Positions 848 through 42,964 of a DNA stretch of 64,000 bases are shown here, in pieces. The stretch is from Siphonodentalium dalli (Eukaryota; Mollusca; Scaphopoda; Gadilida; Siphonodentaliidae): contig CP136061.1 in NCBI GenBank assembly GCA_032622095.1, positions 87,164,983 through 87,228,982 of the forward strand, given 5' to 3'. Made by a program: the position numbers and the translations under genes. Positions within the stretch are counted from its first letter, which is position 1, and each line of letters starts with the position of its first letter. Below the pieces are notes generated by a model. It was not told the DNA's origin and ran no database searches. It saw nothing but the letters and a program-made list of their open reading frames with translations.

Positions 848-929
848 AGCGCCACATTATCATTAAGCCTCAGTATAAACGTACATAGTAATTGCTCGCC
901 TTTTTTAAATTTATTTTTATGACAGCATA

Positions 930-4349: not shown

Positions 4350-4394
4350 AAGAAATAACTGAAGAATGTAGGAATACAAGCTCGTACAAAGTTG

Positions 4395-5930: not shown

Positions 5931-5934
5931 TACG

Positions 5935-6330: not shown

Positions 6331-6339
6331 GGGAGGCGC

Positions 6340-7219: not shown

Positions 7220-7492
7220 TATCACTTCAGATTTTTCATTTATCAAGGGAAATAAGTTCCCTCTCATGATCTACAGTTATGATATTACGGATGTATAAAC
7301 TGCATGTGTGAAATATTTCTATTTTTCATTTGTTCGTTGTAGTTGAAAACGGCAGTTTCAAGATGCCATAAATGAATAATATGGACTTACAAATTCCAAA
7401 TATTAGATTATCTGAGCACAATAAACATTTAAAACATATGTTGTCGTTAAATTGAAAGAAGATACTGCTTTATTTTTTAGCATTAAACAAAT

Positions 7493-7950: not shown

Positions 7951-8503
7951 ACGTTAAGACATTTACACACGCCGGGCTGAACCATGGTGAAAGGCCGTGG
8001 TGTGCACACGTGATGGGGATCTACAGGGCTACAAGGCTGTGACATGGGCTGGTGAAAGACCACTCCTGAATACTAGCCAGTTTTTATAACAATTGGAAAT
8101 TTAATACACAACAGAATAGCAATGGAAATTCCGACTGGATAACTGTTGAAATTTAACTGATACTTTATTTCTCAACAAATATTTACATGTATAGCATGCG
8201 AGTTTTGCCCCAATTAATTGAATACTTACAACTTTCAGACAACATATCCTCGCCAAATGCGCACATAATCGACCTACAAAGTGAAATAGACACATAATGC
8301 GATTATTTGATTCTGGCTTATTTGTGTCATTTTCAGCACATAATCTGCCTAGAATCGCACCATTATGAGTCGATAATATGACTACAAGGCTCCCATTTAC
8401 AGCACACTATCAACTCAAATTGACGATATTCTCAGCAGATTATCAACCTAAAAGAAGTTCCATTGTAAGCAGATAATGTGCGTATGTTTAGGAGAACAGG
8501 CTC
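7950..8503. other. No feature recognised
   Basis: Ordinary AT-rich sequence. The frame at 8101-8295 on the minus strand has no recognisable motif. Confidence 0.45.
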
Positions 8504-9760
8504 TTCAGACACATTCAAACCGGATTGATCCTAGTTCATGTAGTTAAACAATCCAGAAACCGGACTCACTATGTAGGATGTGTGTGGTCAATATTACAAA
8601 CAACAAATTTGTTAACACTCAGGAAAGTTGGAAGGGGTGTTGGTACGTGAAAATGGAAGTTTTTATTGTTGGTACGACCCTCTCCCTTGTGAACCAATAT
8701 CATTCAGACTCGTCCCTGGTCAGCCTATGCCATCATATGCTAGATCATGACATGAATCTCTACTATATATATAACATTGAACAAACAAGGCAGGGAATGT
8801 ACTTCTTTGTTAATACTTGTTACTCAATAATATGCTGCACATTAGGGGTGGTCCCTGCTTGAGATTGCATATTTATATGTGACTGTTGTGAGCCAATACC
8901 GCAATAAACATTGAATTAATTACCTAGGAGAAATTCCATAATTGTAAGCGACGCAAAGCGAAATAGCTCACAAAGTCAAATCATGCAATTTCAAGTTGGG
9001 ACATTCACCTACAGTGAAGTACATTATTACGGAACAGGTAATAACTAAGAAATATATTCCCGGTGTTAATTTTTCGACTTTATAAGGTTCCCTGTCAAAA
9101 CTTTAAAAAGTTCGCAGGTTTTGTACTGGTGGAATTGATCTCTATGGTATAGAGTATAGATTCATGGCACGATCTAATTAATAAATAGAGCATGGCTTGG
9201 AGTGAAATACGCCGATATAGTGCATAGTGAGGTTGTGTAGTTCACGACGCGAAGCGGAGTGAACTACACAACCGCACTATGCACTATATCGGCGTATTTC
9301 ACGACAAGTCATGCTCTAATTATTATATTGTATCGAACAAATATTTTGATTTATCAGTAGGAAACTACTATTTTCAACTTTTACTAAGTTCAGACAATTG
9401 ATGTTCGCCTTACTGAAGCTTTAATTTGGATCAGCGGCGAAATAACAAGTAGTTTCAGAACAAAGTTTGATGTAGTGTTCGTTACTATTTTTAGTAGTCA
9501 AAACTACATATGCATAGTGCACGATGGGAGAGACTTGAAGGCGTAGTATACAACTACGACTAATAGAGTCGAGTAGCCAACCAATCGGAAAGCTTGATTT
9601 CAATAACAAAGTCACGTGAGATACAATATCATGATCTATAAGGACTGTATATACTCTTAGAAATGTATCGTGTATATTATAAATGTATCAACCGTTTCAA
9701 TTTTCTACGGAAGTCAGACAAACGCTCTTTAATTTTACCATATAAGGAATAGACTCTTCC
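8504..9760 (+). repeat. 1.25-kb tandem duplication, unit 1
   Basis: Matches 9749-11065. Shared landmarks are GGTCAATATTACTAACAACA-like sequence near the start, TAACATTGAACAAACAAGGC, GGTGGTCCCTG, and ACTCTTAGAAATGTATCGTG near the end. Unit 1 carries extra DNA at about 9178-9620 that unit 2 lacks, and this includes the fold-back at 9188-9317. Unit 1 lacks the 446-bp insertion found in unit 2. Confidence 0.65.
9188..9317. mobile_element. Fold-back MITE (130-bp palindrome)
   Basis: Left arm AGAGCATGGCTTGG through GGTTGTGTAGTTCAC pairs with the right arm GTGAACTACACAACC through ATGCTCT, around a loop near GACGCGAAGCGGA. The arms are about 58 bp with few mismatches. It lies in the segment that is absent from the sister repeat unit, so it probably arrived after the duplication or was lost from the other copy. 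Confidence 0.7.
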
Positions 9761-11065
9761 GACACATTCTAAACCCAATTGATCCTAGTTCGTGCAGTTG
9801 AAACAATCCAGGAAACCAAATCAAAATATAGTTTGTGTGTGGTCAATATTACTAACAACAAATTTGTTAACATCAGGAAAATTCGAATGGGTCTTGGTAC
9901 GTGAAAGCGGTATTTTTTATTGTTGGGACGACCCCCTCCCCTGTAAACGAATACCATTCAGACTCGTCCCTAGCCAGCCTATGTCATCATAGCGTACATG
10001 TATGTTAAATCATACCATGAATCTCTACTATATAACATTGAACAAACAAGGCAGGGAATGTACACACACAATTTCGACCTCAAGTTATATGATGATTAAA
10101 ACAATTTCGACCTCAAGTTATATGATGATTAAAACATACCATGCAGATTTTGTCCATACGATTTCTTTTGTTTTTTTGTTATTTGTTTTTCAAATTCAAA
10201 GTTACATCTGTAGCTCATGTGCCCCATCGTGTCAAGTCAACATTTATGTATATGCATGTCGCTATGACAGTATTCCTGTGTAAATGACGCGAGTGTATCA
10301 AATAAATAGATAGTCTTATATAGTAATGGGCACACCCACCCTGTTTTGGATGGATGTGCCTTCAATGAATGCATTAGCATTAATATAACATATACTATAA
10401 TATAAGTATGTACCTGTTAAATGTTGTTTTGTCATATATTATTGTATTTGAATTTTGTATATCTCATATATCATGATTATTGATTTATTGAGATTAAAGA
10501 ATTGAATTGAATGTATTTCTTTGTTAATACTTGTTCATCAATAATCTGCTGCACATTAGGGGTGGTCCCTGTATGAGATTGCATGTTTATATGTGACTTG
10601 TGTGAGCCAATATCGCAATAAACATTGAATTAATTACCTGGGAGAAATTCCATAATTGCAGGCGACGCAAAGATAAATCGCTCACAAAGTCAAATAATGC
10701 AATTTCATGTTGGGACCTTCATCTACAGGGAATATTACGGAACAGGTAATAACTAAGAAATATATTCCCGGTGTTATTTCATAAGGTTCCCTGTCAAAAC
10801 TTCAAAAAGTTCGCAGTTTTTTGTACTGGTGGAATTGATCTCTGTGCTAGAGCATAGATTCATGGCATGATCTAAAATATATGTATGATCCTATACAGGC
10901 TGAGTATACTCTTAGAAATGTATCGTGTATAATATTAGAAACCTATCACTCTTAGAAATGTATCGTGTATAATATTAGAAACCTATCAGCCGTTTCAATT
11001 TTCCACGGAAGTCAGATAAACGCTCTTTAATTTTGCCATATCAGGAATAGACTCACCATAAACGC
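9749..11065 (+). repeat. 1.25-kb tandem duplication, unit 2
   Basis: Sister of 8504-9760, offset about 1,245 bp. It is interrupted by an insertion at 10063-10508. Near its end, a 40-bp block beginning CACTCTTAGAAATGTATCGT occurs twice in tandem (about 10908-10988). Confidence 0.65.
10063..10508 (+). mobile_element. LINE or SINE 3' fragment with ATTGA-type tail and 7-bp TSD
   Basis: This 446-bp segment interrupts repeat unit 2. It is flanked by GAATGTA on both sides (10056-10062 and 10509-10515), and the unoccupied site is present once in unit 1 near 8795-8801. The 3' end reads GAGATTAAAGAATTGAATTG, which is a typical short-repeat tail of a non-LTR element. A 33-bp block containing ATTTCGACCTCAAGTTATAT is duplicated near its 5' end. 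No RT coding is left, so it is either 5'-truncated or a SINE. Confidence 0.7.
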
Positions 11066-11330
11066 TCTTTATTGTGTCATACCGAACACGCACACTGTTG
11101 ATATACTGGTTAAACACATTGTATTATACATAAAGTATAACTATAAAATTTGCTATAAGGTAATTCAAGTATATGTATCGACCTATTTCGATACAGGGAC
11201 AAAATCAATGTACGCTTGCATGACGTGGTTAACCGGTTAATCTCGGTTAATTAAAATGGCCAACCGGTCATGAACAATAGTGTTCTAGAAGGTGTAAATA
11301 GTATAGACCATAAGCAAACTACCCGGCTCA
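11066..11330. other. Fragments of repeat family C; otherwise nothing
   Basis: A block with ATCGACCTATTTCGATACAG (about 11178-11200) matches family C copies. No gene is seen. Confidence 0.4.
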
Positions 11331-11880
11331 TTATTGTCCCACGAAACATTTATTTTGGGGGGACTATTGTAATAAGCCCCGTGCGTGCGTCCGTCCGTGC
11401 ATCCATGAGTCCCGTCCGTCCGTGCGTCCGGAGTTATAACTCCAGTAATGATCATCCGATTTGATTGAAACTTGGTATGTAGGTGTCTCAACCAAGAACA
11501 CAGGTGCTCTGCAATTCTGGGTTTGATCCGATGTTCTTTTATGGAGTTAAATTTTTCTTGTTTTTTCTTTGGTTTCCGGATGATAATTAACTCAAGTTTG
11601 GATTGTTTAATTGGAAATTCTTTTTTGTGGGTCGTTCATATCAAAATACAGGTCAAGTTCGAATTTGAGTTTGATCCAATGATTTTTCCCAGAGTTATGG
11701 GCCTTTCGACTTTGAAAAACATTTTTTATAATTTTCTGTATGAGGGTACCTTCATGGTGTAATCAACTCCTCCTACAGTTTTGATCGTAGATATTTGAAA
11801 CTTCAGAGTATTGTTACCCACATATTAGAGATGTGCAACATGTTTATAGATGACGGAAAAATATTTTTTTTTACGGAATT
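11331..11880. repeat. Probable dispersed repeat with CGTCCGTC-rich start
   Basis: A CG-rich run of GTCCGTCCGTGC-type repeats (11385-11430) is followed by paragraphs containing GAGTTATAACTCC, GATTGAAACTTGG, GAGTTATGGGCC and CTCCTACAGTTTTGATCG. This pattern resembles a repeat that I associate with mollusc and other invertebrate genomes. No open frame makes sense across it. The family assignment is from memory and unverified. Confidence 0.4.
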
Positions 11881-12111
11881 ATTAACCCTCTCGACTTAGA
11901 ACATTTCAACATTTTTTAAAATTTCTTTAACAAAGCGGCATCGACTTGCCACGTTGTCGGTGGACTCTGGTCGGCCGACCTTTTATCACATTTATAGTCA
12001 ACCGACCAGATGCTCAAAGAGTGTCATGGTTTGCTTTTTTTGTACTAAATATGATATATGGTATCGAGTAGTCGAATAAATCGACTAGTGACCATCGACT
12101 ATCAAGTTATC

Positions 12112-16772: not shown

Positions 16773-17172
16773 TTAACCCTTTACCCAACAAACCGGCCAA
16801 AACCGGCCAAATAAAGCTTCAACAGCCTAAAATATCTTCGGTCTGTCTCAATAGAACCATACAAATATGGATATCATTGGAACCGGCTCCTTGACCACAT
16901 TGTGATAGTTACAGTTATGCCCTGTGCCAATGCATTCTCTTATATATGCGAGTCGACCATAGGTCGCCTCGCATATATAAGAGAATGCATTGGCCTAAAA
17001 AAAATCTTTTTTTAACACTTTTTACCATTTTTTCTTACATTCTTTAACAATTTTATAATTTTTAATGTGTTAAGCCAATGCATTCTCTTATATATGCGAG
17101 GCGACCTATGGTCGACTCGCATATATAAGAGAATGCATTGGCACAGGGCCGTTCTGTTGGGTAAAGGGTTAA
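16773..17172. mobile_element. TTAA-flanked MITE, copy 3, two hairpins
   Basis: A 400-bp element including both TTAA sites, from TTAACCCTTTACCCAACA to GGGTAAAGGGTTAA, with hairpins at 16926-16994 and 17074-17142. It is the best-preserved family member. The adjacent empty site at 16708-16711 shows that a single TTAA became two. No transposase coding is present, so it must rely on an enzyme supplied elsewhere. Confidence 0.85.
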
Positions 17173-17369
17173 TAAAGAGTATATACCGTTATGTATTAGG
17201 AAGTTGTCATTTTCGCAGTCTTGGTCTAATAGAACGAATCCAGAAAAAGTCGTTATATGTATAAAACAATTTAACATTGTCAATTTTAAAATATTTTAAT
17301 TCTCGCTGTGTTAGTTGTTGCAAACATATCTATTCACTGGCAAAATTTACAACTTTCGTAAACTTCTTC

Positions 17370-17769
17370 TTAACCCTTTACCCAACAAACCGGCCAAAAC
17401 CGGCCAAATAAAGCTTCAACAGCCTAAAATATCTTCGGTCTGTCTCAATAGAACCATACAAATATGGATATCATTGGAACCGGCTCCTTGACCACATTGT
17501 GATAGTTACAGTTATGCCCTGTGCCAATGCATTCTCTTATATATGCGAGTCGACCATAGGTCGCCTCGCATATATAAGAGAATGCATTGGCCTAAAAAAA
17601 ATCTTTTTTTAACACTTTTTACCATTTTTTCTTACATTCTTTAACAATTTTATAATTTTTAATGTGTTAAGCCAATGCATTCTCTTATATATGCGAGGCG
17701 ACCTATGGTCGACTCGCATATATAAGAGAATGCATTGGCACAGGGCCGTTCTGTTGGGTAAAGGGTTAA
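17370..17769. mobile_element. TTAA-flanked MITE, copy 4, two hairpins
   Basis: Duplicate of copy 3, with hairpins at 17523-17591 and 17671-17739. Its left flank is CTTC rather than the original GCTG, because it is the junction of the tandem duplication. Confidence 0.85.
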
Positions 17770-17969
17770 TAAAGAGTATATACCGTTATGTATTAGGAAG
17801 TTGTCATTTTCGCAGTCTTGGTCTAATAGAACGAATCCAGAAAAAGTCGTTATATGTATAAAACAATTTAACATTGTCAATTTTAAAATATTTTAATTCT
17901 CGCTGTGTTAGTTGTTGCAAACATATCTATTCACTGGCGAAATTTACAACTTTCGTAAACTTCTTCTTA

Positions 17970-18199
17970 ACAACATATGTTTGGCCAATCAATTCAGTAA
18001 GACCAAACCGCACTATGCAAATCAGCATGGCTACGTAACCGGTGGTAATATTATTATGTATGTCATTACGGCGTAATGTCGTTCGTGATATATAGTTGTG
18101 TGTTACGAATGACAATTATTTCATGTTTTATTTAATCTGGTATGATATTATGACAGATTTATTCTCAATTTGTTTGGGTCATCTTTAAGTTGTTTTCAG
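17970..18199. other. No feature recognised
   Basis: AT-rich spacer between the MITE duplication and the minisatellite. Confidence 0.5.
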
Positions 18200-19145
18200 C
18201 TAATCTGCACAATCCCGCGAACCACTGCATAGCTAATCGTATAACAACACATGCACAAATGTATACGGCGAATCATCAATATATGTAAGCCATGCACCAC
18301 TGCATAACTAATCCATATAACACCGCGAACCACTGCAAGATAATCCGTATAACCCCGCAACCACTGCATAACTAGTTCGCATAACCACACGAACCAGTAT
18401 ATAGCTAATCCGTACAACACCGCAACCACTGTATAACTAGTTCGCATAACCACACGAACCACTACATAGCTAATCCCACATGAACCACCACATATGTAAT
18501 CCGTATAACCACATGCATGCACAACTGTATACGACGAATCAACAATACATGTAACCACATGCATGCACCACTCCATGTCTAATCTGCATAACCGCACGAA
18601 CCACTGTTATTGCCAATCATTAATCTATGTAACTAATTGCACCACCGTACAGTTAACCCATATAACCATGTGCACAACAACACGAACCATTGCACTGTTA
18701 ATCCATAGAATAACTGTAACCACCGCACAGCCAAATCGTATAACCACACGGACCACATCACTGTTAATCCGTATAACCACACGCACCACTGCACAGCTAA
18801 TCCATATAACAAGAATAACCACTGCGCAGCTAAATCATATAACCACACGGACCACATCACTGTTAATCCGTATAACCCCATGAACCACTGCACAGCTAAT
18901 CCATATAACAACAGTAAACACTGCACTGCTTCAACGAATAACCACATGATACACCGCACAGCTGATGCATATTTCCGTATGCACCACCTCATAGCTAATA
19001 TGTATTTTCGCATGAACAACCCCACAGCTAATATGTATTTCCACCTGCACCACTTCACGGCGGATACATATAACCACGCGAAAAAATGAACTGCTAATCG
19101 GTATATCCACACAAACCACCGACCATCTAATCTATGTAACCACAT
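18200..19145. repeat. Degenerate minisatellite, unit about 33-36 bp
   Basis: Many copies of a unit like AACCACTGCACAGCTAATCC followed by RTATAACCACAC. Copies vary in length and sequence. Open frames on both strands here are artefacts of the repeat. The left edge of the 3.9-kb direct repeat (18871) lies inside this array, and its right part recurs at 28139-28413. Confidence 0.85.
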
Positions 19146-19724
19146 TACTGTGGAGAGGGGGTTATTGGTTGGCAGACCCCTTAGTAGTTGTGGTAGATGT
19201 CCACAGGTATTATTCCCTGTGTCCTCACATTCACATCTGATAAAGGATTGGTATATCCATATCATCAATTCAATAAACAACTTCAATGTCGACTCGTGTA
19301 TTTATGATCGCCAAAGTCCAAGTCCAAATTCTTATCAACACTGCACCTTAGTTACTTTGATAACAACGGTATTACGTAAACACCGCTTAGGTTGTGGTAT
19401 TTGTGTTAGACTGGTAATAAAATTAGGCGATGATAGAACATATCAGAATCGTCTTCATTCTGAGTCCAAGACCAAATAAAGTGATGATTTACACCAAATA
19501 GTGAAATCAGGTTATAAATTGTACGATAAAATGCTCTAAAAATAATCTAAATGAACGACGATTTACACCAATTAATTAGATCAGTAAATGGGAGTATTTA
19601 CCATGATTCCTAATATGGAATTGTAAATACATAGCCGTTGTTTAGACATATCTCAATGACAGTCTTTAAATGTTTACTGCATGCTTATACGCGAGAATAC
19701 GGTGTCGCGGCTGTCTTGGATTAA

Positions 19725-20095
19725 ACCAGCCCCGTTCCGTGATTTCAGAGATTAATCCAGCCCCGTTCCGTGGTTTCTGAGATTCATCCAGCCCCGTTCC
19801 GTGGTTTCAGAGATTCACACAGCCCCGTTCCGTGGTTTCAGAGATTAATCCAGCCCCGTTCCGTGGTTTCAGAGATTAATCCAGCCCTGTTCCGCGGTTT
19901 CAGAGATTAATCCAGCCCGTTCCGTGGTTTCAGAGATTAATCCAGCCCCGTTCCGTGGTTTCAGAGATTAATCCAGACCCGTTCCGTGGTGTCAGAGATT
20001 AATCCAGCACCGTTCCGTCGTTTCAGAGATTAATCCAGCCCCGTTCCGTGGTTTCAGTGATTGATCCAGCCCCGTTCCGTGGTTTCAGAGATTAA
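19725..20095. repeat. 31-bp minisatellite, about 12 copies (left copy)
   Basis: The unit is CCAGCCCCGTTCCGTGGTTT followed by CAGAGATTAAT. Most copies differ by one or two bases. The duplicate array at 28993-29363 carries the same variants in the same order, which shows how recent the duplication is. Confidence 0.9.
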
Positions 20096-20293
20096 TGATG
20101 GCAATGACGGTACCGATGGTGATGATGACGGGGATGACGACGGAGGTTGCGACGACTACAGCGACGACGACTAACATGATGCCGATGATGCTGACGATGC
20201 TACTGATGATTGACGATGCTCATGACGCGATGATGATGATGATGACGACGACCATGACGACGACAAGGACGACGACGACGACGACGATGATGG
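20096..20293. repeat. ATG/ACG triplet tract (left copy)
   Basis: A run of GATGAT and GACGAC triplets directly after the minisatellite. It produces a spurious Met/Thr-rich frame. The duplicate lies at 29364-29561. Confidence 0.85.
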
Positions 20294-21080
20294 TTTTCTT
20301 AGACTTATGATTTTGAATGGACCAGTTTCTGCGCCGCAGTAAATAACTTAACATCCATTGCGGCACATATGTATATATGTTTCCTTGTATATATGTTCAT
20401 GTTTACACTCTAATTTTGTACTGTGTTGTGCTATTGGGTATTAAATCAATCATATTAAATCAAAGGCTAATTTAGGGCAAATTACATTGTAGTTGTTTAA
20501 CAACTTAATGAATGCATATAGATCTCGCTGCGCATGTATATTAACACCCCTGGTTATGGGGAGACGTATATATGTTACAGTAAATCAGTGAAATTAGTAA
20601 TTATGCGAAAACCCTGAATCGTTTAGTAAATTCATGAAATCCCTGATCTGAGTAGGAATTTAATGGAACTACTAGAAAATTCAGGGATTTCGCGTAATTA
20701 CTGATTTTAGGCGCCAGGGATTTCATGAAATTACTGAAGGACAACCAAGTTAAAGTTTTATTATTTTTATTGCAAACAAGTTATGGAATACATAGAAATT
20801 ATAGTCATATTACAAACACAATCAACATTTATAAGATGTTTGATGCTAAGATAAATCATCATCAATGTTCCAGTAACAAATTTAGTTTACAGAAAGAAAT
20901 AGGCAAAATGTTTCCACTGAAAAGGTTTTTCTCAACGGCCGGGTTGAACCTTTTTGTCGACAAAAACAGAAGCACGAATGCTTTTCACTTAGCTCAATAC
21001 AAATTCATCATCTACTTGTTTTTACATGTTAGGCTATTGTGACATCGTGAATTACATTTTAATTGAGCCTTGAAACATTT
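20294..21080. other. No gene recognised; short inverted sequence at 20620-20730
   Basis: The sequence around 20610-20730 holds loosely inverted blocks (AATTCATGAAATCCCTGA near 20629 and TTCAGGGATTTCGCG near 20680), suggesting a small decayed fold-back. The frame at 20725-21042 is unrecognised. All of it is duplicated 9,268 bp downstream. Confidence 0.4.
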
Positions 21081-21308
21081 TCATTTGGCTGTCGTGCATG
21101 TCCCCTTACAGTTACATTTCTTAAATCCTTGACCACCTGTTGCAGATTGCTCCCTGACTGCAGAGCGTAGAGGGAGAATCATTGTTTGGCAGATGTGATC
21201 GGTAGTCAAAAGTCTCTCCGGGCACAAATCAAATTGGTTGCGAGAATACTTTTCGCTCAGAATGCCTGATTTGACAGCGATTGTGTATAAGTCTCTGTCG
21301 AGGTTCAT
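21081..21308 (-). pseudogene. Integrase-type transposon C-terminal fragment (left copy)
   Basis: A 75-codon minus-strand frame. Its C-terminal part, GGQGFKKCNCKGTC, follows YSRNQFDLC and LPLRSAV. As I recall, this order (RNQF, then a conserved cysteine, then LSLRxA, then GGQG-CNC-CxC) occurs at the C-terminus of invertebrate integrase-derived proteins annotated as KRAB-A domain-containing protein 2-like. The frame stops before the usual run of further cysteines, and the catalytic integrase core is not seen upstream, so it is a fragment. The assignment is from memory. Confidence 0.45.
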
Positions 21309-21329
21309 GTCGACAACTCCAAAAATCCA

Positions 21330-21520
21330 GCAAAAAAAAATGGCAAGAGATTTTCAAGAAAGAATTTCTCTGGGTCTATCTGGCGAAAATCTTGAATGTC
21401 ACAAAACATCATCTTCATTGAGTAATCATTGGATACATTTGAGAGGTTGAAATTATTATCTTTTTTGTCACCTTATCTCCAATCAGCAAATAGCTTATTG
21501 TCTTGGCTCCAGGAGCGTAG
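21330..21520 (+). repeat. Repeat related to 6.4-6.9 kb (left copy)
   Basis: Shares AATTTCTCTGG, ATACATTTGAGAGGTTGAAA and TAGCTTATTGTCTTGGCT with 6360-6860, with an internal deletion. Duplicated at 30598-30788. Confidence 0.6.
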
Positions 21521-22819
21521 GCTTCGTTCCCCGAGTGGGTGGGTATCCAGAGGCCAAAACAAGTGTTCTCCTAGGTCATGCAACTTTTATCCAAATACAA
21601 TATTTTACTTTGTTTCTATTTAAACAACTTGCAGGTGTTTTAGTCTTCTCTAATGACTAGAAATGACGCATTAAAAATAGTCTTCACCCCCTCATATAGA
21701 TGATAACATTGGTAAAATTCACTGAGAACTAATGTTGAAAGGGGGTCTTTCTGTGAACGGAACACAATTCCATATGTAAAAAATGTTTTCGATCAAGATA
21801 TGTACACAAAATAAGGTTATTTTCTGGTTATTTCTCCCATAACTATCAGCAAACATGTCGCAACGATGCTTGCTATATGCAGGCCGATACAACTGTAAGG
21901 GCAGGAGTATAATGTTAATAGCACAGCCAGACGACCAGTTAACAGTTACCGATTCATGCGAAGAAAGGGTTACATTTGGAATTGCACTGCTCTGTGATGG
22001 TGGGTTTGGACAAGGTCCCTTAACATAAGCACGCAAAAGCAACGGAACCCCAAAGGAAATCCTTTTGTTTCTTTGTTTTGTTTTTTTTTAGATATTTGAA
22101 TCAGTAACTTTCAACAATCGGTGCTATTATAAGATTATGCCAGGACAAGAGAGAAGCTTATATATTTATAGAAAGCATGAATTAGTCTAAATTTCTGTAA
22201 ATTGAGCAGATATAATCGTCATTAAAACAGTGAATTTGCCATTCTTAGTATTTCTTTGTTTGGAATTAAACAGGAAGTCACAATAATTGCGGTTAATAAA
22301 AACACCTGGTTGGAATAGGAGGCGGTCGTTTAAATTGGACCGAATTTGGAGATGGATTGGGTGGGTGTCAAAAATTTGATGGATAAAATTACACGGAAGT
22401 GTGGATGGGTCCCAAAATTCGGGGGAAAAAAATCAACCTTGTGTATGAACTTTTATCCGCTCCCCTCATAGACCGCTACCCTCATATATTATAATGCAGA
22501 ATAAAGCAGTCACAAATATTCCAGCCCAATGAAAACAAATGTTGATATGCAGTATATGGTCTACTCAAGTAGTGAGCAATCAAATGGAATCAGGCCACAG
22601 TGGTCAGCTTTAACTTTGTCAGGAACCTATATGCCCCAGAACTCATCTCAGCCCAATTTTCCACCACTGATAATTAAATTCCACAATTAAGAATAATTAG
22701 GTCTCCTCTCATGATCTTCAGATATAATATCACGGATATATGAACTTTACTTTAAAAACATATATTTTTTAAACAGAAGTTCTTGGTACCTGAAAACAAT
22801 GAAATTTTAAATACTTTTT
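21521..22819. other. No gene recognised, up to the LINE junction
   Basis: A minus-strand frame at 21719-22042 (107 codons) has no motif I know. The rest is AT-rich. Its last bases, AAATACTTTTT, form the 5' target junction of the LINE. Confidence 0.4.
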
Positions 22820-22833
22820 ACCTCAAAGCTGAT

Positions 22834-23433
22834 ATGCAAAGTTTCGTCGGCCATATATATGGCGAACTCAACAAATTCGCCCACTTGACATGGAACACAA
22901 TCCACGCTAACCGATCGCAAAACCCAATTGATACAAGAGGATACCCACAATCGCCGTCAGTTAGCCATGCAGACATTCAGCTGGTTGGTATTAGCAAGCA
23001 CCCATCTTCACCCATACCTAGTGCTTCAAAATTCAACCCGCAGGAAACGTCTACACCAAGTTCTTCTCACGTTAAACGCACAGATAAAGAGCCAAAAAAC
23101 ACACCACTTGACAAGAAGAATAACTCTATTAACTATGCGCGTCACGCTAATCATGACACGCACGTTGACAACCAACAATCCAATTATGACCTCCGTGATA
23201 TTCCTGTGGATGATTGTGACGACACCCACCACGATTCCGCAGAAGACACTCGACACTCCAATAAACGGAGCCACCTGCAATCAGAGAAGCCTGGTGCTAA
23301 CGATGATCATTCAAACCACAACAGACGCCCTTCGCGAAATAACTACTCATCGAACAACGCATCCTTTTCCAGGTTCTATCAAAAGTCAAACGACGGCCCT
23401 ATTAGACATCGCGTGTGTTCCTCGGTAACCTAG
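22834..23433 (+). pseudogene. LINE ORF1, N-terminal part (disordered), frame broken
   Basis: An open frame of 199 codons from the first ATG inside the element. The product is hydrophilic and rich in His, Asp, Asn, Ser and Lys, with no zinc knuckle, and looks like a disordered RNA-binding region. The frame runs 14 bases into the element from upstream target DNA, so any longer native N-terminus is missing. It stops 18 bases after the start of the next frame, where the conserved C-terminal domain begins. The likely cause is a 2-base gain in the GTGTGT run at 23413-23418. ORF1p normally coats the RNA and acts as a chaperone in LINE particles, so this copy may not make a whole one. Confidence 0.6.
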
Positions 23434-23726
23434 ATGTTAAAGTCGATGCATATGTGCTTTCTGATTATCTGGATGAATTTGAAGTGCGTCACTCAGTTGT
23501 TCGAATCCTGCAAGGTGGAAGAGCTGACGGTCCTGTGTCAGCCAGAATAAATATTCATGTGGATGATGTTGATGAAGTACTCAGGAAAGGTTTCTGGCCT
23601 ATTGCCGTATTATGTAGACCTTGGCTGTCCAAACGTTCCTTTGACGATAGACGTGACAATAACTACCATAACACAACTGAGGATATACGTGGGAAACATC
23701 AATACCAACGACAACAACAACAATAA
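23406..23726 (+). pseudogene. LINE ORF1, C-terminal RRM-like domain
   Basis: In the frame offset from the upstream part, the product begins VFLGNLDVKVDAYVLSDYL and continues to a tryptophan-proline motif (GFWPIAVLCRPWL). It ends in a basic, Gln-rich tail. This pattern (a VFVGNL-type strand, a helix with DYL, then a WP strand) matches the C-terminal domain of ORF1 proteins in CR1/L2-type and related LINEs. There is no good ATG at its start, and a stop codon lies just upstream in this frame (23403-23405), so it reads as the displaced second half of ORF1. The alternative is a genuine separate or frameshifted ORF. Confidence 0.6.
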
Positions 23727-23802
23727 AATCAACTCGCATAGCAACAAATCAAATACCAAATCTTGTGCCTGCTTATGCATTTGAACCTTGAATCGCTCAA
23801 CC

Positions 23803-26800
23803 ATGTTACACGTATTACGTAATTATGCTGGTGAATCTAGCGCTTGCCACTGTTTGTGCAACTTATTGATAATTTTCATAATGTTGTTGAATATTTGCAC
23901 ATGGAACGCTACTGGGATTTTCGGTAGCAGTTCCTACCTCTCGAGCCTTCTCGCACAGGAAAATGTTGGTGTAATTGGAGTGAGTGAGCATTGGCTCTGG
24001 GAGCACAATTCTCATTTTCTCAACACATTACACCAAAATTATCGCTACCATATAGTGTGTGACTATTCACAAAGAATACCGTTACAAATGAGAAGGGCGG
24101 GAAGGCCGAAAGGCGGAGTTGCCATTATATGGCATGCTAGTTTGGACAGTGCCGTTTCAGTCATCCAATACGACGACGATCGCATTTGTGGCATTCAAAT
24201 ACAGATATCAGAATCACAGTATGTATACATCTTTCAGGTGTACCTCCCTTCCAGCAATTACCCAGTCACAATGTATAGAGACTATATAAATCGTGTGCAA
24301 GACCTTATCGATATGTACACAGAAATAGGGCACGTCATTGTAATGGGTGACTTTAACGGCAGTGTACAGAGATCGGATGCCAGAAATAGAAGTTTATCCA
24401 AACTTATCTCACAAAAATCACTGGTGTCTGTCAACAATACTGACGCTTGTATTGGGCCTTCTGCGACATACGTACCCACCGATGGTGGACCAGGTACCAT
24501 GATAGACCACATCCTCATTCCCGAGGAAGAATCGTACCTAGTACAGAAAATCGAAATCATCGACGACGATTCACTGGATGTCTCTAATCATAGGCCAATT
24601 AAAATGGTCATAAATTACCCACATAATAATAAAATGGGTCGCTCAGAAAACCAAATTTCAGCATGCAATTGGAAAAAGTTCACTGCCTCGGAAGACTTAA
24701 TCAATGCTTATCAAACCGCCGTGCAGGACAGTCTTCCGAACTTTGCCATATCTGACATCGATGATCTCGATTCGTACTACGATTCTGTTGTTAGTGCGAT
24801 AAACAAAGCTACAACGCAGCACATACCAAAAAAGTCTTTCAAATCTTTCGCCAAACCGTATTGGAACGACTCTTTGGAATCACTCCACTGCGAAATGCGC
24901 AATACTAGAAATAGATGGCTAGAAGAAGGGAGACCGAGAGGTATTGTAAATATCAGCTACGGCAACTATAAAGAAGCTAAACGCAAATTTCGCCGCGAAC
25001 TTCGCAAATGTAATGGGCAATACATGTCTGCTCAAAATGAACAAATTGATAATTCAGCTGAGTTAGACCAGGGTCTCTTTTTCAAGCTCTTTAACAACAA
25101 AAGATCGAAATCAAAACCGGATAGTAAATTATTCAATGTAAATGGCAAAATAATCCGGAATACGTCGGACATCACCGCTGCATGGGCAGATTACTATGAA
25201 CAACTATATTCACCTCTACAATCGCCCACTTTCGATTCAGAACATCTGGAGAAGATACAACTTTTGATTGCAGATATTTCTGAACATAAGTCACCTTCTA
25301 AAGTAGACCAATCTCTCATTTATGAGATATCACACAGAGAGCTCAATAACGCTATTAGTAATGCCAAAAAGGGGAAAGCCCCAGGTCCCGACCGCATATG
25401 CTATGAGCATGTGGTACATGGTGGCGATACATTGCTCAACTGCACAGCATACATGCTGTCTATGATGTTGAAACTCAGACATGTTCCAAAAATGGCCAAG
25501 ACGGGATTAATGATTTCCTTGCATAAGGGTGGAGACAAACCAAAGAACAAGTTCGATAGCTACAGAGCAATTACACTCTTACCCATATTCTATAAGCTCC
25601 TGGAAAAGGTTCTGCTCAATCGCTTCGAAATTAATACACCATATCTCGTTAAAGTTCACCCCCTTCAGAACGGGTTCCAGAAAGAAATAAGTTGCTTAAT
25701 GTCATCATATGTTGTTAGCGAATGCATCAATTACACATCAGAGCAGAATAGTAAGCTGTATGCATGTTTCCTAGATGTCCGTAAAGCCTTTGATACTGTG
25801 TGGTTAGACGGCCTATTGATCAAACTTTACAATCGTGGTTTCCGTGGACATATATGGTTCATACTACGGGAGATGTTGTCGGGCTTTTCGTGCTTCGTCA
25901 ATTATGGTAAATCAATGTCAAGGGAAATCAAAATACTACAAGGGACGCGACAAGGGGGAATTTTATCCCCTCTTTTATACATGTTGTATATAGATGATCT
26001 GTTATATGAACTCGAGGCATCGAACTATGGTCTTCGGATTGTCTCCACAAACTGCGCGTCGCCAACTCAAGCGGATGATATGACGCTCTTTTCGCTCACA
26101 AACGTGGGCCTACAACGCCTCTGTGATATTTGCACAATGTATAGCCGATTGTGGCGGTTTACATACAACGCACAGAAATGTAAAACCATTGTATTCAATG
26201 AAAAAGTGAAGAATCTGCCTGTGCATCCAAGGAGATGGAAACTTGGTGACGGGTATGTAGACGAAACTGATCACATAACCCATCTTGGCATAACGTTGCA
26301 TAGAAGCGACTTCGCTCGTGAGTTCATCGACTGTATTGTCAACAAAATAAGATCCACCTACTTCATGCTGAGCAATGCTGGTATGTATGCAGGTGGAATC
26401 ACCCCTCAAAGTTGCGAAACTCTTTACAGATCCATAATTATTCCAAAGGGTCTATACGGATCTGAACTATTGTGTGGTCTATCAGAAACCCATTGGTCAA
26501 CTCTTGAGAAAATTCATCGCTTCTGCCTCAAGCATATCCAGGGACTTCCTGTACGTGCTCGCACTGATATCGTTTTGGGGATGCTTGGCATCCATCCTAT
26601 CAAGTCATTGATTGATGCCAGGAAACTCAATTTGTTTGGAAGCCTATGCCGTATGCCTCCTGGCAAAGCTTGCAAGGAAATTTTTGTCACAAGACTTCAC
26701 ATGTACTTCACGGGACAACTGGAAAACCCAAATTCCTTCATCAGCGACATTAACAACACTCTTGTTGAATACAACCTATCCGAGCATATGCATCAGTATG

Positions 26801-27375
26801 CTCATTTCTGCTCATTTCCTCTGAAATCCGAATGGAAACGCATTACAAAAACCGCGATTAACGACAAATGCGTACAGAAATGGACAGAGAGAACAAATTG
26901 TGACACTTCATTTGCGCGTTTTCGAGAAATTCAACCAAACCCTACTATGTGTCACTTATGGAGAACATGTCGTAAATACCCTATGCATAAGATTGCATTT
27001 ATCACAGTCGGTCAGCTCATCGCAGGAAGCGCATTCTCTCAACAAAACACATGCACATTATGCTGTCAGTCACACTCTGATATTATCGAGCACGCACTTA
27101 TCTCATGCAGTAGCCCACTTATGCATTCCCACAGAAACGAAATGTGGTACCAGATGATTGATCGTTTCGGCATACCGCTATTCGTATGGGCCACGAGTCT
27201 CAGCAACAGCGACCTCGTATTGCTCCATCTCACACATCTTCCACGTGATATATTCACATTTCTTGAGCAAGTTGAGGATACATCAAAGTTTACGAGATTC
27301 ATTGTTCTTCACACAAACTTAATTTGGAGGCGCTATGTCGAACTCTCAGCCACTACGCATGACGGTTTGTGTTAA
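23803..27375 (+). CDS. LINE ORF2: APE endonuclease and reverse transcriptase
   Basis: 1,190 codons without a stop, counted from the ATG at 23803; an in-frame ATG at 23881 directly before NICTWNATG could also be the start. The endonuclease domain is N-terminal: Asn and Trp in NICTWN, Glu62 in GVSEHWL, Asp183 in GDFNGS, TMIDHIL, and His263 in SNHRPI. The reverse transcriptase has GKAPGPD, then SYRAITLLPIFYKLLEK, the first catalytic Asp658 in FLDVRKAFDTV, GTRQGGILSPLLY, and the catalytic pair in QADDMTLF (Asp758-759). The C-terminal part has a CCHC cluster, C1084-x2-C1087-x9-H1097-x4-C1102. All key residues are present, so the enzyme may be active. It would nick target DNA and copy the LINE RNA onto it. 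ORF2 lies 76 bases after the ORF1 stop. Confidence 0.92.
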   Translation: MLHVLRNYAGESSACHCLCNLLIIFIMLLNICTWNATGIFGSSSYLSSLLAQENVGVIGVSEHWLWEHNSHFLNTLHQNYRYHIVCDYSQRIPLQMRRAGRPKGGVAIIWHASLDSAVSVIQYDDDRICGIQIQISESQYVYIFQVYLPSSNYPVTMYRDYINRVQDLIDMYTEIGHVIVMGDFNGSVQRSDARNRSLSKLISQKSLVSVNNTDACIGPSATYVPTDGGPGTMIDHILIPEEESYLVQKIEIIDDDSLDVSNHRPIKMVINYPHNNKMGRSENQISACNWKKFTASEDLINAYQTAVQDSLPNFAISDIDDLDSYYDSVVSAINKATTQHIPKKSFKSFAKPYWNDSLESLHCEMRNTRNRWLEEGRPRGIVNISYGNYKEAKRKFRRELRKCNGQYMSAQNEQIDNSAELDQGLFFKLFNNKRSKSKPDSKLFNVNGKIIRNTSDITAAWADYYEQLYSPLQSPTFDSEHLEKIQLLIADISEHKSPSKVDQSLIYEISHRELNNAISNAKKGKAPGPDRICYEHVVHGGDTLLNCTAYMLSMMLKLRHVPKMAKTGLMISLHKGGDKPKNKFDSYRAITLLPIFYKLLEKVLLNRFEINTPYLVKVHPLQNGFQKEISCLMSSYVVSECINYTSEQNSKLYACFLDVRKAFDTVWLDGLLIKLYNRGFRGHIWFILREMLSGFSCFVNYGKSMSREIKILQGTRQGGILSPLLYMLYIDDLLYELEASNYGLRIVSTNCASPTQADDMTLFSLTNVGLQRLCDICTMYSRLWRFTYNAQKCKTIVFNEKVKNLPVHPRRWKLGDGYVDETDHITHLGITLHRSDFAREFIDCIVNKIRSTYFMLSNAGMYAGGITPQSCETLYRSIIIPKGLYGSELLCGLSETHWSTLEKIHRFCLKHIQGLPVRARTDIVLGMLGIHPIKSLIDARKLNLFGSLCRMPPGKACKEIFVTRLHMYFTGQLENPNSFISDINNTLVEYNLSEHMHQYAHFCSFPLKSEWKRITKTAINDKCVQKWTERTNCDTSFARFREIQPNPTMCHLWRTCRKYPMHKIAFITVGQLIAGSAFSQQNTCTLCCQSHSDIIEHALISCSSPLMHSHRNEMWYQMIDRFGIPLFVWATSLSNSDLVLLHLTHLPRDIFTFLEQVEDTSKFTRFIVLHTNLIWRRYVELSATTHDGLC

Positions 27376-27568
27376 ACAACCTTTGATCTTTGAAGTTTGA
27401 ACGTTACGGGTGTTCACCATAAGTCGTACTTAAATGTACCACATTCTGTCCTGTCCATAAAACCGAAGACGACAAATTAAATAAACATGAATAAATTAAT
27501 AAATCATTATATATATATGTATGCATAGGTATGTGTATATGAGGGTGTGATGGTGTGTGTGTGTGTGT

Positions 27569-27626
<58 letters not shown>

Positions 27627-28138
27627 GTGTATACGTGTGTGTATATGTTTTCTTGCGCTAGCGTTTGCACTGTCGCAACATCATCCTACATATAGTCTAT
27701 TCCACTTAATGGGTGCATACATTTATAGGGGAGCTATTGTCGAGCAAGGGCATTGCGTTTGCTGACTCTTTGGGGAGAGAGATTCTTCTAAGCGAATCCA
27801 ACTCCAACTAGAGTTCCTTTTGTAATTGTATGCACCTGCTTATGGTGTGCTGTTGTGACAGTGCATCATAACGTATGTATGTACGGTTGTGTTTGTGTCT
27901 GCGCCATGTGTTAGATTGTATATGCGTACGGGTGTGGTCGAGAGGGTGTGTGTTTTCTGTTGATGTGATATGTAAGCTCGTGTTCGTGTACATACAATTA
28001 GAATGGTATTCTTTTCCTCGGTAGTTTGTTCTCTTGTCTGTCTTTTCATTACTTCTTGATTGCTAAATGTATTTATGTTACATTCATGTATACTATGTCT
28101 TGTTAAATCTTCAATACTGGAGGCAATAAAGATATATA
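27376..28138 (+). other. LINE 3' UTR with TG repeat and AT tail
   Basis: Non-coding. A nearly pure TG run lies at 27552-27623. The last 25 bases contain CAATAAAGAT and an AT run. There is no poly-A stretch, consistent with a microsatellite-type LINE tail. Confidence 0.75.
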
Positions 28139-28992
28139 TATAACCCCATGAACCACTGCACAGCTAATCCATATAACAACAGTAAACACTGCACTGCTTC
28201 AACGAATAACCACATGATACACCGCACAGCTGATGCATATTTCCGTATGCACCACCTCATAGCTAATATGTATTTTCGCATGAACAACCCCACAGCTAAT
28301 ATGTATTTCCACCTGCACCACTTCACGGCGGATACATATAACCACGCGAAAAAATGAACTGCTAATCGGTATATCCACACAAACCACCGACCATCTAATC
28401 TATGTAACCACATTACTGTGGAGAGGGGGTTATTGGTTGGCAGACCCCTTAGTAGTTGTGGTAGATGTCCACAGGTATTATTCCCTGTGTCCTCACATTC
28501 ACATCTGATAAAGGATTGGTATATCCATATCATCAATTCAATAAACAACTTCAATGTCGACTCGTGTATTTATGATCGCCAAAGTCCAAGTCCAAATTCT
28601 TATCAACACTGCACCTTAGTTACTTTGATAACAACGGTATTACGTAAACACCGCTTAGGTTGTGGTATTTGTGTTAGACTGGTAATAAAATTAGGCGATG
28701 ATAGAACATATCAGAATCGTCTTCATTCTGAGTCCAAGACCAAATAAAGTGATGATTTACACCAAATAGTGAAATCAGGTTATAAATTGTACGATAAAAT
28801 GCTCTAAAAATAATCTAAATGAACGACGATTTACACCAATTAATTAGATCAGTAAATGGGAGTATTTACCATGATTCCTAATATGGAATTGTAAATACAT
28901 AGCCGTTGTTTAGACATATCTCAATGACAGTCTTTAAATGTTTACTGCATGCTTATACGCGAGAATACGGTGTCGCGGCTGTCTTGGATTAA

Positions 28993-29363
28993 ACCAGCCC
29001 CGTTCCGTGATTTCAGAGATTAATCCAGCCCCGTTCCGTGGTTTCTGAGATTCATCCAGCCCCGTTCCGTGGTTTCAGAGATTCACACAGCCCCGTTCCG
29101 TGGTTTCAGAGATTAATCCAGCCCCGTTCCGTGGTTTCAGAGATTAATCCAGCCCTGTTCCGCGGTTTCAGAGATTAATCCAGCCCGTTCCGTGGTTTCA
29201 GAGATTAATCCAGCCCCGTTCCGTGGTTTCAGAGATTAATCCAGACCCGTTCCGTGGTGTCAGAGATTAATCCAGCACCGTTCCGTCGTTTCAGAGATTA
29301 ATCCAGCCCCGTTCCGTGGTTTCAGTGATTGATCCAGCCCCGTTCCGTGGTTTCAGAGATTAA
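28993..29363. repeat. 31-bp minisatellite, about 12 copies (right copy)
   Basis: Same variants in the same order as 19725-20095. Confidence 0.9.
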
Positions 29364-29561
29364 TGATGGCAATGACGGTACCGATGGTGATGATGACGGG
29401 GATGACGACGGAGGTTGCGACGACTACAGCGACGACGACTAACATGATGCCGATGATGCTGACGATGCTACTGATGATTGACGATGCTCATGACGCGATG
29501 ATGATGATGATGACGACGACCATGACGACGACAAGGACGACGACGACGACGACGATGATGG
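29364..29561. repeat. ATG/ACG triplet tract (right copy)
   Basis: Duplicate of 20096-20293. Confidence 0.85.
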
Positions 29562-30348
29562 TTTTCTTAGACTTATGATTTTGAATGGACCAGTTTCTGC
29601 GCCGCAGTAAATAACTTAACATCCATTGCGGCACATATGTATATATGTTTCCTTGTATATATGTTCATGTTTACACTCTAATTTTGTACTGTGTTGTGCT
29701 ATTGGGTATTAAATCAATCATATTAAATCAAAGGCTAATTTAGGGCAAATTACATTGTAGTTGTTTAACAACTTAATGAATGCATATAGATCTCGCTGCG
29801 CATGTATATTAACACCCCTGGTTATGGGGAGACGTATATATGTTACAGTAAATCAGTGAAATTAGTAATTATGCGAAAACCCTGAATCGTTTAGTAAATT
29901 CATGAAATCCCTGATCTGAGTAGGAATTTAATGGAACTACTAGAAAATTCAGGGATTTCGCGTAATTACTGATTTTAGGCGCCAGGGATTTCATGAAATT
30001 ACTGAAGGACAACCAAGTTAAAGTTTTATTATTTTTATTGCAAACAAGTTATGGAATACATAGAAATTATAGTCATATTACAAACACAATCAACATTTAT
30101 AAGATGTTTGATGCTAAGATAAATCATCATCAATGTTCCAGTAACAAATTTAGTTTACAGAAAGAAATAGGCAAAATGTTTCCACTGAAAAGGTTTTTCT
30201 CAACGGCCGGGTTGAACCTTTTTGTCGACAAAAACAGAAGCACGAATGCTTTTCACTTAGCTCAATACAAATTCATCATCTACTTGTTTTTACATGTTAG
30301 GCTATTGTGACATCGTGAATTACATTTTAATTGAGCCTTGAAACATTT

Positions 30349-30576
30349 TCATTTGGCTGTCGTGCATGTCCCCTTACAGTTACATTTCTTAAATCCTTGA
30401 CCACCTGTTGCAGATTGCTCCCTGACTGCAGAGCGTAGAGGGAGAATCATTGTTTGGCAGATGTGATCGGTAGTCAAAAGTCTCTCCGGGCACAAATCAA
30501 ATTGGTTGCGAGAATACTTTTCGCTCAGAATGCCTGATTTGACAGCGATTGTGTATAAGTCTCTGTCGAGGTTCAT
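30349..30576 (-). pseudogene. Integrase-type transposon C-terminal fragment (right copy)
   Basis: Identical in translation to the 21081-21308 frame, with the same GGQGFKKCNCKGTC ending. It is copied as part of the 3.9-kb repeat and has no independent evidence. Confidence 0.45.
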
Positions 30577-30597
30577 GTCGACAACTCCAAAAATCCA

Positions 30598-30788
30598 GCA
30601 AAAAAAAATGGCAAGAGATTTTCAAGAAAGAATTTCTCTGGGTCTATCTGGCGAAAATCTTGAATGTCACAAAACATCATCTTCATTGAGTAATCATTGG
30701 ATACATTTGAGAGGTTGAAATTATTATCTTTTTTGTCACCTTATCTCCAATCAGCAAATAGCTTATTGTCTTGGCTCCAGGAGCGTAG
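30598..30788 (+). repeat. Repeat related to 6.4-6.9 kb (right copy)
   Basis: Duplicate of 21330-21520. Confidence 0.6.
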
Positions 30789-32087
30789 GCTTCGTTCCCC
30801 GAGTGGGTGGGTATCCAGAGGCCAAAACAAGTGTTCTCCTAGGTCATGCAACTTTTATCCAAATACAATATTTTACTTTGTTTCTATTTAAACAACTTGC
30901 AGGTGTTTTAGTCTTCTCTAATGACTAGAAATGACGCATTAAAAATAGTCTTCACCCCCTCATATAGATGATAACATTGGTAAAATTCACTGAGAACTAA
31001 TGTTGAAAGGGGGTCTTTCTGTGAACGGAACACAATTCCATATGTAAAAAATGTTTTCGATCAAGATATGTACACAAAATAAGGTTATTTTCTGGTTATT
31101 TCTCCCATAACTATCAGCAAACATGTCGCAACGATGCTTGCTATATGCAGGCCGATACAACTGTAAGGGCAGGAGTATAATGTTAATAGCACAGCCAGAC
31201 GACCAGTTAACAGTTACCGATTCATGCGAAGAAAGGGTTACATTTGGAATTGCACTGCTCTGTGATGGTGGGTTTGGACAAGGTCCCTTAACATAAGCAC
31301 GCAAAAGCAACGGAACCCCAAAGGAAATCCTTTTGTTTCTTTGTTTTGTTTTTTTTTAGATATTTGAATCAGTAACTTTCAACAATCGGTGCTATTATAA
31401 GATTATGCCAGGACAAGAGAGAAGCTTATATATTTATAGAAAGCATGAATTAGTCTAAATTTCTGTAAATTGAGCAGATATAATCGTCATTAAAACAGTG
31501 AATTTGCCATTCTTAGTATTTCTTTGTTTGGAATTAAACAGGAAGTCACAATAATTGCGGTTAATAAAAACACCTGGTTGGAATAGGAGGCGGTCGTTTA
31601 AATTGGACCGAATTTGGAGATGGATTGGGTGGGTGTCAAAAATTTGATGGATAAAATTACACGGAAGTGTGGATGGGTCCCAAAATTCGGGGGAAAAAAA
31701 TCAACCTTGTGTATGAACTTTTATCCGCTCCCCTCATAGACCGCTACCCTCATATATTATAATGCAGAATAAAGCAGTCACAAATATTCCAGCCCAATGA
31801 AAACAAATGTTGATATGCAGTATATGGTCTACTCAAGTAGTGAGCAATCAAATGGAATCAGGCCACAGTGGTCAGCTTTAACTTTGTCAGGAACCTATAT
31901 GCCCCAGAACTCATCTCAGCCCAATTTTCCACCACTGATAATTAAATTCCACAATTAAGAATAATTAGGTCTCCTCTCATGATCTTCAGATATAATATCA
32001 CGGATATATGAACTTTACTTTAAAAACATATATTTTTTAAACAGAAGTTCTTGGTACCTGAAAACAATGAAATTTTAAATACTTTTT

Positions 32088-39554: not shown

Positions 39555-39672
39555 TGGGGGGGGGGGGGGGGGGGGGGGTGTCGGAAATATTTCAGACACG
39601 TTTGATACTTTTGTTTTACCTTTGGCCATTTTTGCGACCCACACAACAACCTCACCCAATTTATTTTTCGTT
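39555..39672 (+). repeat. Poly-G-headed repeat, copy 1
   Basis: A run of more than 20 G is followed by TCGGAAATATTTCAGACACG and GCGACCCACAC. It resembles 53470-53640, where poly-G is followed by TCGAATATTTTTTTCAGGCACG and GTGACCCACCC. The family is unknown. Confidence 0.5.
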
Positions 39673-40049
39673 TTAACAATTTACCCAACAAACCGGCCAA
39701 AACCGGCCAAATAAAGCTTCAACAGCCTAAAATATCTTCGGTCTGTCTCAATAGAACCATACACATATGGATATCATTGGAACCGACTCCTTGACCACAT
39801 TGTGATAGTTACAGTTATGCCCTGTGCCAATGCATTCTCTTATATATGCGAGTCGACCATAGGTCGCCTCGCATATATAAGAGAATGCATTGGCCTAAAA
39901 AAATAATTTTCTTACATTCTTTAACAATTTTATAATTTTTAATGTGTTAAGCCAATGCATTCTCTTATATATGCGAGGCGACCTATGGTCGACTCGCATA
40001 TATAAGAGAATGCATTGGCACAGGGCCGTTCTGTTGGGTAAAGGGTTAA
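39673..40049. mobile_element. TTAA-flanked MITE, copy 5, two hairpins
   Basis: The right end GGGTAAAGGGTTAA is intact. The left end is altered to TTAACAATTTACCCAACA. The hairpins are at 39826-39894 and 39951-40019, and the spacer between them is shortened. The sequence just outside the right TTAA is CAATTTA, the same as the altered left end. Gene conversion or an end repair copying flank sequence could explain that. Confidence 0.75.
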
Positions 40050-40182
40050 CAATTTATCAACTACCTATATTACGGGTTGGTGTATGTGATTAGTTTAGTT
40101 TGACTTGGCAGTGATTGATTATGCAACATGTCTATGCATTTTAAGTTCGGAGTGACACAGACTGATATATACTGGGCATTTA

Positions 40183-42204: not shown

Positions 42205-42964
42205 GAAACCAAGCATGCGCACGCGAACTTTGCATGCAATCCTCATCAAGCATACCACTGATTTGACATGCAAACAACATAATTAAATACAAAATAATCA
42301 CGACAAACATAAATACATCACCGTACTGTGACTGGCAAGAAGTATGAGGCACTGTTATATCACAAACGGACTCGTAATCGTGAATTTTGCGAAAAATATT
42401 TTGGACCGTCCGAAAAATTTACGACTACATGTATTAGCTATTCATTATTATTAACATTATAGTATCTCATTTTGCCAAATGTGTCCTTTTCGAGATCGTC
42501 GCCGGATAACAGAATTTGCGAGAAAAACATGATGCGCACCGAGTGTCTACCTCCAGTACTAAAATGACGTAGCCAAGTCAATAATGTTTATTTCAGTATG
42601 TTTTCTTGATCAAATCAATATAGCTGACAATGTCACCCCGCCCCTTTTGGTATGCGGGATTCGAGCCTTTTTAAGGCGGGATTCGGGCATTTAAGGCGGT
42701 GAGTGGGATGCACACCCCTCTGTTGACTGGTACTCGGACTCATGTGCCCAATTTAACAGATATTCAGGATTCAACAATAAGGCTGGTACGCAGCTTTTAT
42801 ATGATAAAATTACACACATTTTGTTTATTTTCCAGCCCGAATGACATAAGTAGATGTACATGTATTTCAGTTAAATACTTCTTGATATGTTGAAGTTATC
42901 GATACTAAATGTACGTCAGAAAATGTTACTAAATATGTATTCCATATTATCTTAACAGAATGGT
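42205..42964. other. No gene recognised; a stray unit of the downstream minisatellite
   Basis: At about 42710-42735 the sequence CACCCCTCTGTTGACTGGTA matches the 31-bp unit that forms an array from 42965. The rest shows nothing recognisable. Confidence 0.5.

Follow-up and report, generated by a model that had tools for sequence, protein, structure and literature searches.

A long interspersed nuclear element (LINE) inserts, according to the model of target-primed reverse transcription given in PMC2881922, by nicking the bottom strand of its target; the freed 3' end primes on the tail of the element's RNA, and the break in the second strand sets the length of the target-site duplication (TSD). 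Here we describe a LINE in a stretch of 64,000 nucleotides of contig CP136061.1 (the window in what follows). It lies between two identical copies of several kb of host DNA, and it has probably duplicated this target region by its own insertion.

The usual TSDs are short. The median reported from human long-read data is 21 bp (PMC12350158), and in DT40 cells TSDs of 5 bp or 15 bp have been described, depending on the LINE species (PMC4245944). The first-pass annotation of the window had stated that the target duplications of LINEs are normally well under 100 bp, which is right for the usual ones but leaves out those of kb scale that are documented in cell culture (PMC5223499, PMC5717806). For an engineered L1 in human cells deficient in nucleotide excision repair (NER), the text of PMC5223499 gives TSDs between 5 bp and 5.3 kb with a median of 1,495 bp, and rows of its tables go up to 6,765; TSDs of more than 100 bp are reported for 4/7, 21/23 and 22/28 of the inserts, 18 of them being longer than 1 kb, and in HeLa cells they never made up more than 10% of the events. 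In PMC5717806, the reported TSDs reach 3,450 bp in CSA-complemented cells (median 13 bp) and 29,902 bp in CSA-deficient cells (median 12 bp). According to the appendix of PMC4805530, only canonical TSD sizes were known to its authors from outside HeLa. On a far larger scale, a tandem duplication of 22.6 Mb that is bridged by an L1 was reported from one tumour, together with a sister-chromatid model (PMC7058536, Fig. 7).

The repeat pair and its junctions with host DNA

Compared base by base at an offset of 9,268 bp, the two copies of the host segment agree in 3,949 of 3,949 positions (0 mismatches). The next base on either side already differs, so that the coordinates of the repeat are exact (Table 1). 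Two direct repeats of this length, at a constant offset and identical in all parts sampled, had already been proposed in the first-pass annotation, and the full alignment bears this out. By the rule of three (0/3,949 differences), the divergence between the copies has an upper bound of 7.6e-4. Note that the identical stretch takes in a minisatellite with some 12 copies of a 31-bp unit as well as low-complexity GAT/GAC tracts, and that the letters of the window are A, C, G and T only. A self-comparison of the window covered direct repeats that are 80 bp or longer and whose starts lie 300-12,000 apart, two satellite regions being excluded (starts at 42900-43900 and above 63300); the pair is by far the longest direct repeat of this comparison, the next being a pair of 602 bp. 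Its length and identity exclude a chance origin. We refer to the upstream flank as U, to the repeat as R and to the downstream flank as D, which makes the observed order U-R-LINE-R-D.

Which of the junctions are native host DNA can be read in part from a 33-bp minisatellite that crosses the boundary between U and the left copy. Identity at a lag of 33 bases is 0.76 across 18870|18871, compared with 0.21 across 28138|28139; 5,000 random places in 33500-62000 gave a background with a median of 0.27, a 99th percentile of 0.45 and a maximum of 0.64. Since the minisatellite is in register across the former position, U and the left R are continuous host DNA, and since the register breaks at the latter, the join between the LINE and R is a new junction. 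The edge between R and D, which no equivalent marker crosses, is presumably native as well. In summary, flush direct repeats of pre-existing host DNA are found on both sides of the LINE, as in a TSD. Their 3,949 bp are far from the usual length of about 5-30 bp (PMC5223499, PMC12350158) and fit the documented class of long TSDs.

The same continuity bears on whether R could be the terminal repeat of an element, either of a long terminal repeat (LTR) element or of a Penelope-like one. Identical direct repeats around a reverse transcriptase would suit this reading, but the minisatellite, in register over the join of U with the left R, ties R to the host and not to an element, and the coding region between the copies is of LINE type with an endonuclease like the apurinic/apyrimidinic endonucleases (APE). 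On the grounds of the minisatellite we set this reading aside and find it scarcely credible. A 3' transduction of R was set aside as well: R ends with AATACTTTTT, D begins with CATGCC, and there is no A-tail between them.

The LINE between the copies

The second open reading frame of the LINE (ORF2) carries an endonuclease/exonuclease/phosphatase domain (Pfam PF03372, E 2.2e-14; PF14529, E 6.3e-07) and a reverse transcriptase (PF00078, E 3.2e-26), so that a reverse transcriptase and an APE-like endonuclease are found within one ORF. Among solved structures in PDB, 10 distinct sequences match ORF2 with E values up to 0.01; R2 proteins score best (6.3e-21), followed by the human L1 ORF2p (3.4e-18). 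The matches to R2 and L1 leave the clade of the LINE unsettled; the class that its coding sequence points to is that of the APE-type non-LTR retrotransposons. Within this class it may be Jockey/CR1-like.

At the 3' end of the LINE, a polyadenylation signal AATAAA starts at 28125 and is followed by a TA run as a simple-repeat tail. The tail ends with the same four bases, TATA, with which the right copy begins. This overlap of 4 bp, which had been pointed out before, is an ambiguity of the join between the tail and the right copy. At the other edge, at 22820, the G+C content in windows of 90 bases climbs from 28-32% to 44-49%. The annotation had the repeats flank a LINE of 5.3 kb exactly. This is well supported for the 3' end, where signal and tail stand at the join, while the position of the 5' end is deduced from the end of the repeat.

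Upstream of ORF2, an open frame at 22756-23433 holds what is probably the first part of ORF1, and a second one at 23406-23726, in another frame, resembles its continuation. Neither of the two frames has a Pfam match above the cut-off; a scan of codon usage gave low scores, and one of its windows (23240) preferred the third frame. At most, this hints that ORF1 may be broken by a frameshift at 23406-23433. Such a change of frame could have been inherited, the LINE could have been mobilised by a helper protein, or there could be an error in a base.

Table 1. The LINE, the two copies of the host segment and the features at their joins (positions in the window; R, repeated host segment)
Feature	Position	Strand	Basis
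Left copy (R) of the 3,949-bp host segment	18871..22819	+	identity with 28139-32087, not extendable
Right copy (R) of the host segment	28139..32087	+	identity with 18871-22819
33-bp minisatellite crossing the start of the left copy (18870|18871)	18676..19144	.	TRF array and lag-33 identity
LINE, 5,319 bp	22820..28138	+	polyadenylation signal and tail at the 3' end; 5' end deduced from where the repeat stops
Probable beginning of ORF1, from the first ATG in frame to the stop	22834..23433	+	no Pfam family; weak codon-usage support
Open frame resembling the continuation of ORF1, other frame	23406..23726	+	no Pfam family; inference
ORF2, 1,196 codons stop to stop	23785..27375	+	Pfam PF03372, PF14529, PF00078; PDB matches
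AATAAA and TA-run tail, ending with the TATA at which the right copy starts	28125..28142	+	sequence inspection

We found no second copy of the LINE within the window (blastn of segments of 22800-28160, E 1e-3 or better), and tblastn of ORF2 against the window returned its self-match only. Relatives of ORF2 were also looked for in contig collections: 3 stretches in viral contigs and 24 in prokaryotic genome contigs matched the pattern, and 0 were confirmed in either case; misses in collections of viruses and prokaryotes say little about an animal LINE. Equally uninformative for an animal LINE, the 3' end taken as an exact pattern of 23 bases had no match in the viral or prokaryotic contig collections. 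Rfam gave 0 families at the gathering threshold.

One insertion or several events

From what is observed, that is, the identity of the copies and their exact limits, the continuity of host DNA at the left edge, the coding capacity of the LINE and its 3' end at the join, we infer a single event together with possible routes for its second end, and we consider it probable that one LINE insertion duplicated its own target region. The endonuclease of the LINE would have nicked the bottom strand at 18870|18871, within the 33-bp minisatellite, and the freed 3' end (...GGGGTTATA) would have annealed to the UAUA tail of the element's RNA and served as the primer for cDNA synthesis. The bottom strand at this position ends with ...TTATA-3', which can pair with a UAUA tail and matches the TATA ambiguity at 28139; AATAAA and the TA tail stand directly at the right copy, whose TATA matches the tail, and this is what priming there would produce. 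The other end of the cDNA would then have joined an end or a template 3,949 bp downstream (22819|22820), instead of a nick a few bases away, and U-R-D would have become U-R-LINE-R-D.

There are three routes that the second end may have taken. It could have met a second, distant nick on the same chromatid, which needs 3.9 kb of strand separation; the cDNA could have been joined to a break in the sister chromatid, as in the model presented in Fig. 7b of PMC7058536; or its end could have switched to another template, followed by copying. From the sequence, the three cannot be told apart. A distant second break and a tandem duplication by way of the sister chromatid were already the models of the first-pass annotation, and the anatomy fits both. 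We rank them first as well, but the exact boundaries on which the annotation relied are not a proof.

When the ends of U, R, D and the LINE are compared flush with each other, 0 bases are shared in 6/6 comparisons, and a plain tandem duplication by microhomology was set aside on this account. It is also highly improbable that R was duplicated in tandem first and that the LINE was later inserted exactly at the R-R junction. While near-identical tandem duplications do occur nearby (16773-17971), the insertion would have to strike one point in about 7.9 kb without leaving a TSD of its own, and the copies of R end flush with the LINE and share no microhomology with the neighbouring ends; we set this order of events aside because of the flush ends and the missing extra TSD.

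A break repair with template switching, which used LINE cDNA as a filler, has a slender chance. Here, a broken U-R end at 22819 would have been extended and would have reinvaded at 18871 via TATA, so that R and D were copied again. TATA is indeed common to the tail and to the start of R, and the neighbourhood is rich in duplications; on the other hand, copying of a chromosomal LINE is not expected to end exactly after AATAAA and the tail. As the LINE's own 3' end would still be involved, such a repair differs from the single insertion only in the order of the steps.

The exact boundaries alone do not prove one event, because a crossover between two insertions or a change of path by the assembler leaves the same sequence. 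The first-pass annotation overlooked this rival, in which the LINE had inserted on two homologues and the sequences were recombined or mis-assembled through it. The first version is an assembly chimera: two ordinary insertions of the same family, at 18871 and 22819 on two haplotypes, were crossed by the assembler inside the shared 5.3 kb of the LINE. As can be derived, U-R-LINE of one haplotype and LINE-R-D of the other give exactly the observed sequence with no trace of a TSD. The second near-identical duplication close by (16773-17971) would also be in line with it, as would the fact that the structure is known from an assembly and not from single reads. However, copies of R from different haplotypes should differ, and 0/3,949 positions do. 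For an assumed heterozygosity of 0.01%, 0.05%, 0.1%, 0.3% and 1%, the Poisson chance of finding 0/3,949 differences is 0.67, 0.14, 0.019, 7e-6 and 7e-18, respectively. The identity of the copies thus argues against an origin from two haplotypes, unless these were nearly identical or the copies were homogenised by consensus polishing. A weak further point is that an insertion at the right site needs a target start other than TATA or a TSD of 59, 83 or 97 bp: the left edge starts with TATA, and at the right edge a scan of lengths 4-100 places a TATA start at 59, 83 and 97 bp into R and nowhere else. This comparison of priming motifs at the edges is too weak to decide between one and two insertions, and TATA need not be required. 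All in all, we hold a chimera to be unlikely.

Non-allelic homologous recombination in the animal itself, by unequal exchange between LINE insertions 3.9 kb apart on two homologues, would have the same outcome: by derivation, a crossover inside the LINE between U-R-LINE-D and U-LINE-R-D gives exactly this structure, with flush R and no trace of a TSD. Recombination between L1 elements is documented, with 219 deletions and 1 insertion flanked by pairs of L1 reported in PMC12350158. Two insertions in the same direction and one exchange are required, however, and allelic differences would be expected between the copies of R, where 0/3,949 were found, which makes this reading quite improbable. Note that a heterozygous LINE at one edge together with an empty haplotype gives one junction of R and LINE only and, as we argue from the graph and not from a computation, cannot yield the observed path. 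By the same argument on the graph, the path calls for either a true R-LINE-R or two sites of insertion, unless gap filling went wrong.

Several points weigh against a single insertion. The structure is taken from assembled sequence, which is what makes the assembly chimera a rival. Large TSDs are rare in ordinary settings, as far as PMC12350158 and PMC4805530 report them. The near-identical tandem duplication 900 bp to the left (16773-17971) means that the region, or its assembly, could be prone to duplications. ORF1 appears to be split, which is unexpected in a very young autonomous insertion unless helper proteins moved it or a base is wrong, and for the 5' start of the LINE we have the end of the repeat to go by.

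The duplication on the left lies at 16773-17971, about 900 bp from R. It is a tandem duplication of the form M-r-M-r, the unit of 597 bp being a miniature inverted-repeat transposable element (MITE) of 400 bp with 197 bp of flank; there is 1 mismatch in 602 (position 17342). Its outer edges are TTAAC on both sides, and the ends of the MITE are TTAA-CCCTTTACCCAAC, also given as TTAACCCTTTACCCAAC. Presumably the MITE is piggyBac-like. Other copies or fragments of it lie near 619-847, 3999-4349 and 39667-40052, and its terminus had no match in the viral contig collection. Edges at the target motif of a mobile element, this close to R, suggest a repair habit of the genome, an unstable region or an assembly that joins too much, and the duplication therefore cuts both ways with regard to the LINE structure.

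Elsewhere in the window there is an older direct duplication (8494-9177 and 9747-10875), which is 82-88% identical in two pieces and has about 450 extra bases in its second copy. An 841-codon open frame (stop to stop) at 50387-52912 contains six Cadherin stretches (PF00028, E 9.2e-91) and is protocadherin-like; because of this frame we take the host to be an animal. Two more tandem arrays are a 31-bp minisatellite of 27 copies at 42972-43820 and a 79-bp array of 7.2 copies at 63428-64000, which runs to the end of the window.

Meaning of the locus and comparison with known duplications

If real, the locus would be a young and heritable case in which the insertion of a LINE duplicated, in a single step, several kb of host DNA, an outcome otherwise described, in the sources at hand, in cultured human cells and tumours (PMC5223499, PMC5717806, PMC7058536). 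We found no inherited LINE TSD of kb scale in the literature searched, which covers few subscription papers. LINE duplications of this size could provide second copies of regulatory DNA or of exons, and a later recombination between the long direct repeats can take the LINE out again and leave no trace of it. Moreover, one could ask at this locus how often the joining of the second end of a LINE fails in the germline. Still, one assembled sequence does not suffice to interpret a "giant TSD" as a single event, because two ordinary insertions that were recombined or mis-assembled would look the same. Potentially, a loose completion of the second end, perhaps in local transposon repair generally, could regularly make heritable kb-scale duplications in this genome. 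LINEs would then be an engine of germline tandem duplication and the 597-bp duplication with its MITE edges a sister product, but we regard this as a long shot.

Among the described systems, the engineered L1 in NER-deficient cells is alike in that it makes direct duplications of several kb with one copy on each side of the LINE, and rows of the table are around 4 kb (PMC5223499). On the other hand, this was a human L1 reporter in repair-deficient culture, whereas here we have another LINE, with a TA tail, in the genome of an animal. The duplications of PMC5717806 resemble ours as occasional cases of kb scale in spite of short medians, although they too come from L1 in cell culture. The tumour reported in PMC7058536 shares with the present locus a single LINE where the two copies of a direct duplication meet, with its 3' end at an endonuclease site and no second LINE; it differs in being somatic, 22.6 Mb in size and joined by a short L1, compared with 3.9 kb, an element of 5.3 kb and an assembled genome here. 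Finally, the repair-mediated proximal duplications of vertebrates are, like the one proposed here, local germline duplications, and they are ascribed to the repair of breaks (PMC2671141), but those reported go up to 619 bp and have a polyA/T tract in 0/39 proximal cases, while here a LINE with its tail stands at the join. The locus thus fits a documented class of events, and what is unusual is the setting: the duplication is apparently young, lies in an assembled animal genome and involves a LINE with a TA tail.

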